This document shows positions 34,366 through 39,267 of a stretch of DNA of 64,000 nucleotides, in pieces (position 1 is the first letter of the stretch; each line of letters opens with the position of its first letter). Both the position numbers and the translations under genes were made by a program. The stretch lies in contig JAHEYU010000017.1 of the NCBI GenBank assembly GCA_023251435.1, forward strand, positions 18,993 through 82,992, given 5' to 3'. Origin of the DNA: Bacteroidota bacterium. Lineage in GTDB: Bacteria; Bacteroidota; Bacteroidia; Bacteroidales; Prolixibacteraceae. The notes under the pieces were generated by a model. The model saw nothing but the letters and a program-made list of their open reading frames with translations, was not told where the DNA came from and searched no databases.

Positions 34366-36837
34366 ATGAGGGGAAGATTGGTTTTGGCTCTGTTGGTGGT
34401 GTCGGTTCATGCCGGCTTTGGACAGAATGCGTGGAAGAAGTCGGGAATAATTATTGAGCCTCCTGTTTGTTATGCTTCAGATGAAATACATTCGTCGTTT
34501 GTAGGTCCTCCGCGTGAATATTATGAAAGGTTAAAATCGGCATCGTCCCAAAAGGCGACCATCGAAGTTACTTATTCCGGGTTTTCGAACGAAGCAATGC
34601 AGGCTTTTCAATATGCTGTTGGCATCTGGGAAAGTCTCATTTTTTCTCCGGTTCCGATCAGAATTAAAGCGAATTTTACGAGTCTGGCAAAGGGAACGCT
34701 GGGAAGTTGCGGGCCTACGATTTACTACAAAAACTTTAATTCAACTCAAAAAATCAACACCTATTATCCGGTTGCTTTGGTCGAGAAAATGCTTGGCGAA
34801 GAGGTAAACGGTGTTGGTCAATTCGATATTGTCGGCAATTTTAACAAAGATTTTACCAACTGGTATTTTGGTACCGATGGCAAAACGCCACCGCTGAAAT
34901 ACGATTTTGTTTCGACCGTATTACACGAATTGGCTCACGGACTTGGCTTTGCCGGAAATTTAGATTCTCAGAGCGGCAAAGGTGGTTATTCTTACAATTC
35001 TGAAATGCTTCCGGGTGTTTTCGACAGTTTTATTACTGATAGAAATGGTAATAAACTGGTAAAAACCAGCATTTACCCGAATCCTTCAATTGCCTTGCAC
35101 CAGAGTCTGACTTCAGGTTTTCTGGAATTTAGCACCAAACTGGTTGGGAATCAATTGCCCAGACTTTACGCTCCGGCCTCCTGGGATGGTGGTTCGAGTA
35201 TTTATCATCTCGACGAAACGACTTATGCCGCAAGCGATACCAATTCGATGATGACTCCTTTTGCGGCCTCTGGTGAAGCTGTTCACACACCCGGCCCCAA
35301 TTCGCTTGCAATTATGTACGAAATGGGATGGAAATCGATCTCAATTAAGCACAAGCAACTAAAAGACATCGAATTTGTTTCGGGCCCAATTGTTTTTAAT
35401 GCGGTAATTAAAAGCGATTACGACCTCGATTCAACGAAATTATACCTGGTTTATTCAGGCAACAGGTTTCTGAAATCGGATTCTGTTCTGCTGAAACCAA
35501 CCGATATTACAGCGAATTTTTCGGCTAAACTTTCAAACATACAGTCGGGTAGCGTGAGTTATTTCTTTTCGGCGACCGATGTTATGAACCGAAGGTTTGT
35601 CTATCCGTCGAATGCCCCTGCAAACAACCTGTTGTTCAAAATTGGTATCGACAAGTTGCCGCCCGTGGTCACGCACGAAGCCATAAAATACATGCTTGAA
35701 AGCGAAACTTCAGTAAAAATTAATGCTGAAGTGACTGATAATATCGGCATCAAATCGGCGAAGATCGAATATTTTATCAATGGGGGAGGCATTCAGACAG
35801 TTTTGATGCTGAATGAAGCAGACGATACATATACCGGAAACCTGGCTTTTCCTTCAGGAACAATAAAAGATGGCGATAAGATTAGCTACCGGATTATAGC
35901 CACCGACGCTTCGTCGCAAAGCAATATCGGGAGAAGTCCGGAGTCGGGCTTTAATATCTTCTTTATTCAGGGAATAAAGCCTCCGGTTGAGAGATATGTG
36001 AATAATTTCGATACTGAAACCAACGATTTTATAGGTTCCGATTTTAATATTTCGAAGGTGACCGGCTTTGACAGTCCGGCTTTGAATTCGGCGCATCCGT
36101 ATTTAAGTCCGAATACCGACGATACGTACTTTAATTTTATTTCTATCCTGAAGTATCCGATTATCCTGAAAACGGGTGGAAAGATGAGTTTCGACGAGGT
36201 CGTGCTGGTTGAACCGGGAGAACCCGGAACTGTATATGGCGACGAAGAATTTTGGGATTACGTGATTGTTGAAGGGTCTAAAGATGGAGGCACAAACTGG
36301 AAACCTTTGATAAACGGGTATGACAGCAATTCGTATAAATCGTGGTATCTGTTGTTTATCAATTCAACTTCGGGGCAAAACAGTACCGCGGTTCCTACCA
36401 AAAGCCTTTTTATAAAGCGTGAATTCGAGCTGCTTGCCAATGGTAATTTTCAGGCAGGCGATACCATTCAGGTGCGGTTCCGCCTGTTTTCCGATCCATA
36501 TTCGCATGGCTGGGGATGGATTATCGACAACCTGGCGATTCAGGACTACAAAACAGATGCGAATTCGCTGGCAATTTCTGAAGGAGAAGTGAACTTATTC
36601 CCGAATCCGGCTTCCGATCGGCTGAACTTGCAGCTTCAGACAAAAAACAGCATCGGAAAGTTATCTCTGAAAGTCTTTAATTCGTCAGGGAAACAAGTTT
36701 TTATAAAACAATTTACAGTGGGGTCAAACAGTTTTCAGACCGAAATTGATTTGAGTAATTTTACTCCCGGACTATTCCTTTTTGCGGTTGAACCCGAAAA
36801 CGGGAATATCGTAACCCGAAAAATTCTGGTCAGGTAA
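34366..36837 (+). CDS. Secreted zinc metalloprotease with type IX secretion sorting domain
   Basis: 823 residues: a signal peptide (1-19); a metalloprotease-like region with HELAHGLGF at 187-195 (zinc histidines, catalytic Glu); Ig-like or propeptide-like segments (about 330-540); a jelly-roll-like domain (about 550-730, ending GWGWIIDNLAIQD); and a C-terminal sorting domain starting NLFPNPASDRLNL and ending GNIVTRKILVR. The tail marks it as type IX cargo. The third zinc ligand differs from the matrixin HExxHxxGxxH pattern: after HELAHGLGFAG no third His follows at the expected place. Substrate unknown. Confidence 0.85.
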   Translation: MRGRLVLALLVVSVHAGFGQNAWKKSGIIIEPPVCYASDEIHSSFVGPPREYYERLKSASSQKATIEVTYSGFSNEAMQAFQYAVGIWESLIFSPVPIRIKANFTSLAKGTLGSCGPTIYYKNFNSTQKINTYYPVALVEKMLGEEVNGVGQFDIVGNFNKDFTNWYFGTDGKTPPLKYDFVSTVLHELAHGLGFAGNLDSQSGKGGYSYNSEMLPGVFDSFITDRNGNKLVKTSIYPNPSIALHQSLTSGFLEFSTKLVGNQLPRLYAPASWDGGSSIYHLDETTYAASDTNSMMTPFAASGEAVHTPGPNSLAIMYEMGWKSISIKHKQLKDIEFVSGPIVFNAVIKSDYDLDSTKLYLVYSGNRFLKSDSVLLKPTDITANFSAKLSNIQSGSVSYFFSATDVMNRRFVYPSNAPANNLLFKIGIDKLPPVVTHEAIKYMLESETSVKINAEVTDNIGIKSAKIEYFINGGGIQTVLMLNEADDTYTGNLAFPSGTIKDGDKISYRIIATDASSQSNIGRSPESGFNIFFIQGIKPPVERYVNNFDTETNDFIGSDFNISKVTGFDSPALNSAHPYLSPNTDDTYFNFISILKYPIILKTGGKMSFDEVVLVEPGEPGTVYGDEEFWDYVIVEGSKDGGTNWKPLINGYDSNSYKSWYLLFINSTSGQNSTAVPTKSLFIKREFELLANGNFQAGDTIQVRFRLFSDPYSHGWGWIIDNLAIQDYKTDANSLAISEGEVNLFPNPASDRLNLQLQTKNSIGKLSLKVFNSSGKQVFIKQFTVGSNSFQTEIDLSNFTPGLFLFAVEPENGNIVTRKILVR

Positions 36838-36838
36838 G

Positions 36839-36868
36839 TTTGAATTGTAAATTAAAAACCTATATTTG
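36839..36868 (+). promoter_or_regulatory. Promoter of the aromatic amino-acid operon
   Basis: TTTG at 36839-36842 and TATATTTG at 36861-36868, spaced 18 bp, fit the Bacteroidota promoter. The predicted transcript start near 36875 lies about 13 bp before the leader peptide, as expected for an attenuator. Confidence 0.7.
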
Positions 36869-36887
36869 CCGTCAAATTGTAAGCAAA

Positions 36888-36962
36888 ATGAAGCTATTCA
36901 GTAACAACAGCTATTTTTATTGGTTTTATTACTTCTGTTCTCAAACCGGGATCGGCAGGTAA
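36888..36962 (+). CDS. Aromatic-rich leader peptide (attenuator)
   Basis: 24 codons from the ATG at 36888 to TAA at 36960-36962. Residues 9-16 read YFYWFYYF: eight consecutive aromatic codons, four Tyr, three Phe and one Trp, with a further Phe at residue 4. This is the signature of a transcription-attenuation leader sensing charged Phe, Tyr and Trp tRNAs. It is followed 30 bp later by an intrinsic terminator, then by tyrA and DAHP synthase-chorismate mutase, the genes one would expect it to control. It was too short for routine gene calling. Confidence 0.85.
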   Translation: MKLFSNNSYFYWFYYFCSQTGIGR

Positions 36963-37026
36963 TCTATTGTTGTTACAAAAGATATTCTACAGATGGGTCC
37001 CGTGTTGCACGAGGCCCATTTTTTTT
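36942..37026 (+). promoter_or_regulatory. Attenuator: antiterminator segment and terminator hairpin
   Basis: The terminator stem runs from ATGGGTC (36993) to GGCCCAT and T8 (37019-37026), with an inner CGTG/CACG pairing. CAAACCGGGATC (36942-36953), at the end of the leader ORF, matches the complement of GGTCCCGTGTTG (36996-37007) at 9 of 12 positions, so it can break the terminator. A ribosome stalled at the aromatic run leaves 36942-36953 free (antitermination); one reaching the stop codon covers it (termination). Confidence 0.75.
36993..37026 (+). terminator. Regulated intrinsic terminator upstream of tyrA
   Basis: A G+C-rich stem-loop with bases CCATTTTTTTT at its 3' side, positioned between the leader peptide and tyrA. 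It is also the first strong terminator after the metalloprotease gene. Confidence 0.85.
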
Positions 37027-37157
37027 GAGCCCCCTTCCCGTTCCCCCAAATGGGGGAAGGCCAGGAGATAGCCGCAAACTTTGTATTTGCCCTGAAAGGG
37101 CAGAATATGAATAGCCCGGGGTAAAACGACGAAGGAGTGACGCCCCGGGTAGGAAAG
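37027..37157. repeat. Palindromic extragenic repeats upstream of tyrA
   Basis: Two elements. At 37027-37060, AGCCCCCTTC is followed by the hairpin TTCCCCCAAATGGGGGAA, also found inverted at 61071-61106. At about 37090-37152, CCCTGAAAGGG is followed by AGCCCGGGG and its complement CCCCGGGT. Both look like REP-type repeats. They lie inside the tyrA leader transcript, after the attenuator. Confidence 0.6.
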
Positions 37158-37279
37158 AACGATAGAAAGCCGTCCACGCAATACGGTTTTTCATGGTAGA
37201 AACTTTATTTTGGACGGAACAGAATTGACCTTCAAAAATGAAGGTGTTTAAGAGCGAGAAATTTGAAATAGTAATATAT

Positions 37280-38173
37280 ATGAAACTTGCAGTAATAGGT
37301 TTGGGGCTGATTGGCGGTTCGATGGCGAAAGACCTTCGGAAAGCCGGATTTGCCAACGAAATTATAGGAGTTGATGCGAGTCCTGAAAATGCGCATGAAG
37401 CGCTTCGGCTGGGAATTATCGACCGGATTGAAACGCTCGAAACGGCTGTTTCGGTGGCTGATATGGTAATTATTGCCATTCCGGTTGACAAGGTTTTGAA
37501 TTCGCTGACCAAAGTGCTCGATCTGGTTTCGGACCAAACAACGGTGATTGACGTTGGATCGACCAAAAAACTAATTGCTGCCGCGGTCGAAAACCATCCG
37601 AAGCGAAGAAATTACATTCCCGCGCATCCGATGTCGGGTACCGAAAATTCAGGCCCTTCAGCAGCGCTCGAAGGCCTTTTCGAAGGAAAAATCAACATTA
37701 TTTGCGATCAGGAGAAATGCGGGCCGCAGCACCTGGCATTTGCCGAAAAAATGTTTCAGGTACTCGGAATGGACATTGCCTACATGACCGCCGACGACCA
37801 GGACCACAGTACCGCTTTTATTTCGCATTTGCCCCACGCCGCAGCTTTCGCGCTGGCAAACGCTGTGCTCGACAAGGAAGACCGCGAAATTATTTTCGAT
37901 CTGGCAAGCGGCGGTTTCAACTCAACAGTGCGTCTGGCCAAAAGTTCTCCTGAAATGTGGGGACCTATTTTTCAACAAAACAAGCAGTATGTTGTTGAAT
38001 CGCTCGATGTTTACATCAAACACCTGAAAGCTTTCAGGAAAAGTATTGAGGGCGATCCGGAACAGATGATGGCGCTGATGAAAAATGCCAACCGGATTCG
38101 TGGAATCCTTGCCGGACAAAACGATTCGCTGGTAAAAAATGAAAAGACAATTGTTAAATTATATACCAAATAA
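37280..38173 (+). CDS. tyrA: Prephenate dehydrogenase
   Basis: 297 residues from the ATG at 37280 (MKLAVIGLGLIGGSMAKDL); a longer in-frame ATG adds 14 residues ahead of the Rossmann strand and was rejected. GLGLIGGS binds NAD(P). IPAHPMSGTENSGPSAA and DQDHSTAFISHLPHAAAFAL are the family blocks with the substrate His. It converts prephenate to 4-hydroxyphenylpyruvate, for tyrosine. It is 2 bp from the next gene, so both share the aromatic attenuator. Confidence 0.93.
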   Translation: MKLAVIGLGLIGGSMAKDLRKAGFANEIIGVDASPENAHEALRLGIIDRIETLETAVSVADMVIIAIPVDKVLNSLTKVLDLVSDQTTVIDVGSTKKLIAAAVENHPKRRNYIPAHPMSGTENSGPSAALEGLFEGKINIICDQEKCGPQHLAFAEKMFQVLGMDIAYMTADDQDHSTAFISHLPHAAAFALANAVLDKEDREIIFDLASGGFNSTVRLAKSSPEMWGPIFQQNKQYVVESLDVYIKHLKAFRKSIEGDPEQMMALMKNANRIRGILAGQNDSLVKNEKTIVKLYTK

Positions 38174-38175
38174 TC

Positions 38176-39267
38176 ATGGGATTAGAACTAGAAATTAACC
38201 CGATCAAGCACTGGTTGCCACAAATAAACAACCCGCTGATCATTGCCGGTCCATGCAGTCTCGAAACCGAGGAGCAGGCGATGGCAACTGCAAAATTAAT
38301 TGCTAAAGATCATCGTGTATTCGTATATCGCGGTGGCGTTTGGAAACCACGTACCCGCCCCGGAAGTTTCGAAGGTGTTGGAAGCATTGGTTTGAAATGG
38401 TTGCAGATGGTACGCGAAGAAACCGGAATGCCCGTTGGAACCGAAGTAGCGAACGCGCAGCATACCGAAGAGGCACTGAAAGCCGGTTTGGACGTTCTCT
38501 GGATTGGAGCCCGGTCAACCGCCAGCCCGTTTGTTGTTCAGGAAATTGCCGATGTGGTGAAAGGAACCGATGCGGTGGTAATGGTGAAAAATCCCGTCAA
38601 TCCTGATGTACAGCTTTGGCTGGGCGCCTTCGAGCGGCTTAGTCAGGCCGGAATTAAAAACATGGTAGCCATTCACCGCGGATTTACGCCTTTCCGCGAA
38701 ACAGAGTACCGCAACTACCCCAACTGGAAAACAGTGATCGAATTGCGCCGTTTGATGCCCAATTTGCCGATTATTTGCGATCCGAGCCACATTGGAGGCA
38801 AGCGTGAGTATTTGTTCGATATTTCGCAGAAAGCGTTCGATATGGGCCTCGAAGGGCTGATGATCGAATCGCACATCGACCCTTCGTGTGCGCTGAGCGA
38901 CAAGGAACAGCAGTTAACCCCGGCCGATCTGGCCAAATTGCTCGACCGGCTGATCATCCGTAATGCAACTACCGACAACAAACTGTTCGAAAATCAGCTC
39001 GAATTGTTGCGTAACCGCATCGACTCGCTCGACCGCGAATTGCTTGAAACCCTGTCGTCGCGCATGAAAATTGCCCGCCAGATTGGTCAGTATAAAAAAG
39101 ATAACAATGTTACCGCCCTGCAGATTGGCCGTTTTGCCGAACTGATGGAAAAACGCGTGAAACTGGGCGAAAGCCTGAACCTGAACGGACATCTGGTTCA
39201 GCAGTTGTTCCAGCATATCCACGAAGATTCGGTGCGCATGCAAACCGAAATCATGGACAAAGAATAG
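38176..39267 (+). CDS. Bifunctional DAHP synthase / chorismate mutase
   Basis: 363 residues. The N-terminal DAHP synthase (about 1-260: IIAGPCSLETEEQAM, RGGVWKPRTRPGSFEG, AIHRGFTPF, ICDPSHIGGKR) is fused to a C-terminal AroQ chorismate mutase (about 270-355: ELLRNRIDSLDRELLETLSSRM, ARQIGQYKK). It thus supplies both the first shikimate step and the conversion of chorismate to prephenate, which the adjacent TyrA uses. The type I-beta synthase fused to a mutase may allow prephenate or aromatic feedback (family knowledge). It ends at a strong terminator. Confidence 0.93.
   Translation: MGLELEINPIKHWLPQINNPLIIAGPCSLETEEQAMATAKLIAKDHRVFVYRGGVWKPRTRPGSFEGVGSIGLKWLQMVREETGMPVGTEVANAQHTEEALKAGLDVLWIGARSTASPFVVQEIADVVKGTDAVVMVKNPVNPDVQLWLGAFERLSQAGIKNMVAIHRGFTPFRETEYRNYPNWKTVIELRRLMPNLPIICDPSHIGGKREYLFDISQKAFDMGLEGLMIESHIDPSCALSDKEQQLTPADLAKLLDRLIIRNATTDNKLFENQLELLRNRIDSLDRELLETLSSRMKIARQIGQYKKDNNVTALQIGRFAELMEKRVKLGESLNLNGHLVQQLFQHIHEDSVRMQTEIMDKE

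Follow-up and report, generated by a model that had tools for sequence, protein, structure and literature searches.

Leader-peptide attenuators upstream of aromatic amino acid genes are a known kind of switch, exemplified by trpL, pheL and aroR. In C. glutamicum, the aroR leader contains Phe-Tyr-Phe, precedes the DAHP synthase gene aroF and responds to limitation of Phe, not of Tyr (Neshat et al. 2014, as reported in a passage of PMC11802643). The same passage describes E. coli pheL as a leader peptide before the gene for chorismate mutase-prephenate dehydratase, controlled by the availability of charged tRNA. In Flavobacterium psychrophilum, a member of the phylum studied here, leader-peptide attenuation has been noted upstream of amino-acid operons, in passages that name no aromatic leader (PMC9723704). 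Leader-like sORFs have been noted in B. thetaiotaomicron, again in passages without a named aromatic leader (PMC7366714). A passage of a 2010 survey states that leader-peptide systems were known only from Proteobacteria and Actinobacteria until the survey itself added one from Firmicutes (PMC2965389). Among the papers listed by searches of the open-access literature, we recognized no description of the leader presented here.

Here we describe an element in a 64 kb stretch of DNA (the window), which is part of contig C75 of a 5.7 Mb genome. Its sequence and that of its relatives indicate that it is very probably a ribosome-mediated transcription attenuator before tyrA and a fused gene for DAHP synthase and chorismate mutase. 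By description, it is like aroR in having a leader peptide with Phe and Tyr codons and in the ribosome-mediated attenuation of a DAHP synthase operon, but it has eight aromatic codons, and its operon also holds tyrA and chorismate mutase. It differs from pheL, which senses Phe: a search of Rfam with 36820-37060 gave, among cis-regulatory families on the + strand, only Phe_leader (RF01859), at 15 bits and an E-value of 4.6, well below the cut-off of 55 bits. The mechanistic plan is the same as that of trpL, which senses Trp only and belongs to a separate locus; in the genus of the window, two Trp leaders in series precede trpE. The comparisons below indicate a real attenuator of a kind already described, with a wide distribution and a putative mixed sensor. 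The features of the locus are as follows.

36839..36842, + strand: possible -33 box TTTG (sequence; of the 81 relatives' loci that have the -7 box, only 27 carry a TTG in this zone)
36861..36868, + strand: Bacteroidota-type -7 promoter box TATATTTG, putative (sequence, relatives' loci)
36888..36962, + strand: leader peptide ORF of 24 codons, MKLFSNNSYFYWFYYFCSQTGIGR, from ATG at 36888 to the end of TAA at 36962 (ORF list, relatives)
36901..36909, + strand: 5' strand of the outer protector stem, in the Ser-Asn-Asn codons, with its partner at 36968-36976 (fold, pair counts)
36912..36935, + strand: predicted sensor run of eight aromatic codons, YFYWFYYF, residues 9-16 (aromatic content in 87 leaders)
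36947..36953, + strand: antiterminator strand CGGGATC, within the leader ORF just beyond the aromatic run, pairing with GGTCCCG at 36996-37002 (fold, covariation, permutation)
36968..36976, + strand: 3' strand of the outer protector stem (fold, pair counts)
36991..37026, + strand: intrinsic terminator, with a hairpin at 36991-37021 and a U run at 37019-37026; its 5' arm is the partner of the antiterminator (folds, per-sequence check)
37280..38173, + strand: tyrA, prephenate dehydrogenase, predicted controlled gene (Pfam PDH_N 1.3e-38, PDH_C 4.5e-22)
38176..39267, + strand: fused DAHP synthase / chorismate mutase, predicted controlled gene (Pfam DAHP_synth_1 1.8e-38, CM_2 3.7e-21)

The first-pass annotation of this DNA described a 24-codon ORF with YFYWFYYF at residues 9-16, followed by an intrinsic terminator and a complementary antiterminator segment, and all three are found. 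When both window strands were scanned for short ATG-started ORFs rich in Tyr/Phe/Trp, His, Trp, Ile/Leu/Val, Thr, Cys, Arg or Met with a terminator within 60 nt, this ORF alone passed; in this leader, 29 nt separate the stop codon from the terminator. The terminator hairpin is part of the minimum free energy fold of 36874-37030 (z -2.76, with 2 of 200 shuffles as stable), and the fold of 36961-37030 gives a z of -3.80 (0/200). The hairpin contains one mismatch, which is probably why a simple consensus terminator scan did not list it, and eight T residues occupy 37019-37026. When the 3' arm of the terminator is left out, approximately 36944-36953 pairs with approximately 36996-37005, in agreement with the earlier pairing of 36942-36953 with 36996-37007 (9 of 12 positions), at a z of only -1.38 (19 of 200 shuffles as stable). 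The outer stem formed by 36901-36909 and 36968-36976 encloses most of the leader. The TATATTTG box, which fits the Bacteroidota-type -7 consensus, and the TTTG upstream are both present; the box lies 19 nt from the leader ATG, where 13-20 had been given, and the TTTG is poorly kept in relatives.

For tyrA, we chose the start codon at 37280 since the alignments of relatives begin there; an ATG at 37238 is also open. The DAHP synthase/chorismate mutase gene lies directly 3' of tyrA in relatives too. In the pathway, tyrA leads to Tyr, and DAHP synthase to Tyr, Phe and Trp alike.

TyrA was found in 126 of the 140 genomes of the family (Prolixibacteraceae), including that of the window. Upstream DNA was taken for 90 loci: the search supplied 30, and another 60 were selected from the remaining 96 so that all 23 genera were represented. 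The first-pass annotation had named a lack of conservation in relatives as a refutation, but the leader is present at all 90 loci, the window's own included: 87 are aligned, one was re-fetched, one has a variant leader and one is cut by a contig end. The three outside the 87-row alignment are L172 (the variant), L038 and L123. In genome G036, re-fetched as L238, the leader is present; in G012, re-fetched as L239, the contig end cuts the leader, leaving the aromatic codons and the terminator visible. The variant leader of G134 (L172), MKPFFYRSSYYYVPYSGAA, has split aromatic clusters followed by a terminator.

Within the best eight-residue stretch of the 87 aligned leaders, 657 of 696 residues (94%) are Tyr, Phe or Trp, namely 316 Tyr, 273 Phe and 68 Trp. 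Tyr and Phe interchange between genomes and between positions in the run. Trp is absent from 19 of the 87 leaders, and 7 of the 23 genera have at least one Trp-less leader; the leader of the window has a single Trp codon. These counts suggest that the switch is conserved mainly as a sensor of Tyr and Phe, so that the earlier proposal of a leader that senses Tyr, Phe and Trp together is only partly supported.

The surrounding elements are conserved as well. An intrinsic terminator stands between the leader ORF and the first structural gene at 87 of 87 aligned loci, 26-34 nt (5th-95th percentile) past the leader stop. Among the 86 relatives' loci with enough upstream DNA, a set that does not include the window's own locus, 81 have TAnnTTTG in the 80 nt that precede the leader ATG, compared with 4.8% of shuffles. 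The distance between box and ATG is 18-25 nt in no fewer than 70 of these 81 loci.

The antiterminator is supported by covariation. RNAalifold, run unprompted on the 87 sequences, returned it as the sole helix. The helix has 97.7% of its cells paired and a covariation score of 0.348, as against 0.237 in shuffled alignments (0/500) and 0.03-0.14 for slid versions of the helix. None of the 500 shuffles reaches the observed values for paired cells, for cells changed on both sides or for the covariation score; the number of pairs with two-sided change (4 versus 2.7, 73/500) and of pair types (12 versus 10.3, 48/500) is less clearly separated. Strand and arm change jointly between genera, as in GGAGATC/GGTCTCC in genus g2 and CGGAATC/GGTTCCG in g3. 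With one representative per genus, and with genera treated as unrelated, the cognate duplex has a mean energy of -11.8 kcal/mol, compared with -9.4 (sd 0.4) kcal/mol for permuted partners (0/20,000). The own partner is favored in 20 of the 23 genera. In the remaining three (g5, g8 and g12), swapped partners do at least as well as the cognate one; the antiterminator strand of g8 lies beyond an early stop codon and is left out by the duplex test.

The outer protector stem is also kept, with 84.9% of its cells paired and a covariation of 0.209 versus 0.139 for shuffles (0/500); the best slid version, at +3, reaches 63.4% and 0.133. For an inner protector stem, which would pair with the antiterminator strand, paired cells and covariation exceed the shuffles, and changed pairs and pair types do not. 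The terminator was judged per sequence and not on the alignment (A1), in which the arm of genus g1, one base longer, is out of register. We also weighed a possible pause hairpin, a small one beyond the leader stop formed by columns 83-87 and 107-111 of A1, and rejected it since it shows no covariation. The first-pass annotation had proposed to test whether the aromatic run and the two alternative stems are found together in homologous operons; in the family, leader, terminator and antiterminator do co-occur, and they covary.

To relate the position of the ribosome to the pairing, we modeled stalling at the 87 loci as a simple equilibrium with an assumed footprint. The RNA was folded as far as the 3' arm of the terminator, which was excluded, and all nucleotides were masked until 11 nt beyond the point where the A-site codon starts. 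The modeled mean fraction of the terminator 5' arm captured by the antiterminator is 0.59-0.63 at each codon of the run, falls to 0.48 at the next codon and 0.24 at the second, and stays at 0.08-0.24 from the second on. With the ribosome at the stop codon, the mean is 0.21, and 0.14 for the window's own leader. Capture is equally high at codons before the run (0.58-0.59). The window's own leader stays permissive for three codons past the run (0.53-0.72) and drops to 0.05 at the fourth. On average, the modeled permissive stretch thus contains the aromatic run and ends where the run ends.

Dinucleotide-shuffled linkers give a modeled capture of 0.50 at the fourth codon, compared with 0.62 for the native ones, and 18 of the 87 loci lie above the 95th percentile of the shuffles made from them. 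A rule of any stall above 0.4 and stop below 0.1 is satisfied by 31 of the 87 loci. In the model, capture without a ribosome averages 0.43 (0.59 in the window's own leader), so that the model yields no clear off state in the absence of translation. By itself, the stall model would be weak evidence for attenuation, and it is the covariation that carries the case. The antiterminator strand starts at a median of 11 nt past the run (10th-90th percentile 8-11, 87 loci), so that a ribosome stalled in the run would leave the strand free, and a ribosome at the stop codon would hide it.

The observed anatomy, conservation, covariation, run position and gene identities suggest the following course of events. 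Transcription would start past the TATATTTG box, and a ribosome would begin the leader peptide. When charged tRNA for Tyr or Phe (here also Trp) is scarce, the ribosome would stall in codons 9-16, where it would cover a strand of the protector stem or lie between the two, and the antiterminator strand at 36947-36953 would stay free. This strand could then capture the 5' arm of the terminator at 36996-37002 before the 3' arm is made, allowing read-through into tyrA and the DAHP synthase/chorismate mutase gene. When the aromatic tRNAs are charged, the ribosome would reach the stop codon and hide the strand, so that the terminator would form and the transcript would end near 37026. In this course, the use of the promoter, the translation of the leader, stalling, termination and the way the switch would respond to each amino acid are predicted from sequence. 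The family loci show what characterizes an attenuator: a short ORF rich in codons for the end products, an intrinsic terminator ahead of the first structural gene, an antiterminator that excludes it and is kept by compensatory change, and sensor codons placed, by model and spacing, for a free strand in the stalled state and a hidden one at the stop.

The search was extended to other families of the class. For TyrA, 34 further genomes have a match at E 1e-20, of which 33 loci were fetched and one (G267, a fragment) was left out; for DAHP synthase, 40 loci were fetched from 121 further genomes, with families picked by hand (G183 is in both sets). Upstream of TyrA (0.4-6.6 kb per locus), an aromatic leader with at least 6 of 8 aromatic residues and a terminator occurs at 12 loci in the sense direction and 1 in antisense; upstream of DAHP synthase (0.5-5.1 kb), the numbers are 8 and 0. 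All four same-order genomes in a 159-genome sample have an aromatic leader. With ATG-started sense matches of at least 5/8, we find 26 leaders in 24 of the 73 class loci of other families; at most of the sampled loci, the searched stretch contains none. At these 24 loci, the leader is followed first by the prephenate dehydratase gene pheA in 21, by an aminotransferase gene in one (L220) and by a DAHP synthase-chorismate mutase gene in two (L235, L278).

These leaders were not chosen for an antiterminator, and their cognate antiterminators are nevertheless more stable than permuted ones (-14.9 versus -10.1 kcal/mol, sd 0.5; 0/10,000 for the 26 leaders, and also 0/10,000 for the 22 leaders of the stricter set with at least 6/8). 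In a picked set of 24 leaders, which left out L222 and L223 though L220 and L227 are no stronger, 23 beat shuffled linkers. The reading as a ribosome-mediated attenuator, already put forward in the first-pass annotation, gains support from this recurrence before prephenate and DAHP genes in other families, together with the co-occurrence and covariation within the family. Two loci from two other families, L229 and L233, have two aromatic leaders in series, each with a terminator, before a prephenate dehydratase gene and 2.3-2.5 kb upstream of tyrA. GTG- or TTG-started matches elsewhere (L208, L237, L258) look like chance. A DNA pattern of seven aromatic codons with a central Trp matched 109 of 395 class genomes, and among the 30 loci returned only the window's own resembled this leader, as judged from the open frames; since this pattern misses Trp-less leaders, the upstream regions of genes were examined instead.

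The terminator could simply end the gene for a secreted protein at 34366-36837, which lies on the same strand and stops 50 nt before the leader; a terminator there would be ordinary, and the aromatic ORF would be a chance frame. Against this stand the -7 box before the leader in most relatives, the leader itself at every family locus with its 94% aromatic run, the covariation of the antiterminator, the recurrence before pheA, DAHP synthase or aminotransferase genes at 24 loci of other families, and the 20 sense loci versus 1 antisense at 6/8 aromatic residues in the two class scans; we regard a chance frame as extremely improbable. We see just as little prospect for control of the terminator by a T-box, a riboswitch or a protein-bound leader. 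T-boxes and riboswitches do use the same plan of a terminator with a competing antiterminator, but a search of the window gave no Rfam family at its gathering score, and the antiterminator strand lies inside a conserved ORF beside the aromatic codons.

A different role for the peptide would be that of a sequence-specific arrest peptide, of which TnaC is an example, stalling on a free aromatic compound rather than on uncharged tRNA. Many relatives do keep leader residues outside the run, Asn-Asn before it and Gly-Ser and Asn-Gly after it. However, these conserved codons coincide with the strands that pair in the RNA, genera g2 and g9 have other residues flanking the run, and within the run Tyr and Phe interchange and Trp comes and goes, which makes an arrest peptide very unlikely.

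Other aromatic genes of the lineage were also inspected. In the same genome as the window, two Trp leaders in series, MIQNTNTIWLPWWGLSANNRK and MNNIWWWHSNFSQYRGRK, each with an intrinsic terminator, precede trpE (L241:974-1245, G000:C95). Among the 21 trpE loci of the genus, 17 have the pair, two have one leader and two shorter loci, apparently cut by contig ends, have none. The codon content of leaders thus tracks the pathway in this lineage. Upstream of the genome's own pheA, on another contig (L175), no aromatic ORF is found among the ATG-started frames. A promoter-like box and a terminator lie directly before this gene (L175:1395-1490, G000:C99), possibly a decayed or different attenuator.

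Between the terminator and tyrA, the window carries an insert with strong hairpins (37027-37279). The gap of 259 nt is the longest among the 87 loci, where the median is 25. The insert has 19 further partial matches in the same genome, and a piece of 31-34 nt is common to only L040 and L042 among the 87 loci. Pieces also occur just 3' of the second attenuator terminator before trpE (L241, L297, L305, L309), as if such repeats settled behind terminators.

The eight mixed codons all lie immediately before the antiterminator strand, and for this reason the leader may act as an OR gate: a shortage of any one of Tyr, Phe or (where kept) Trp would induce both the first step of the shikimate pathway and the prephenate branch. 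We give about even chances to this view, which includes a switch that is widespread in, and perhaps ancestral to, the class, with two in series in some lineages.

The comparisons point to a leader-peptide switch, with no Rfam family at cut-off, that precedes aromatic genes throughout a family and in part of its class, to which the gut Bacteroides also belong. Searches for further leaders of this type may profit from the spacing rule, by which the antiterminator strand begins about 8-11 nt beyond the sensor. With the leader of the window, the weight that a single leader gives to each of several amino acids could be tested directly.
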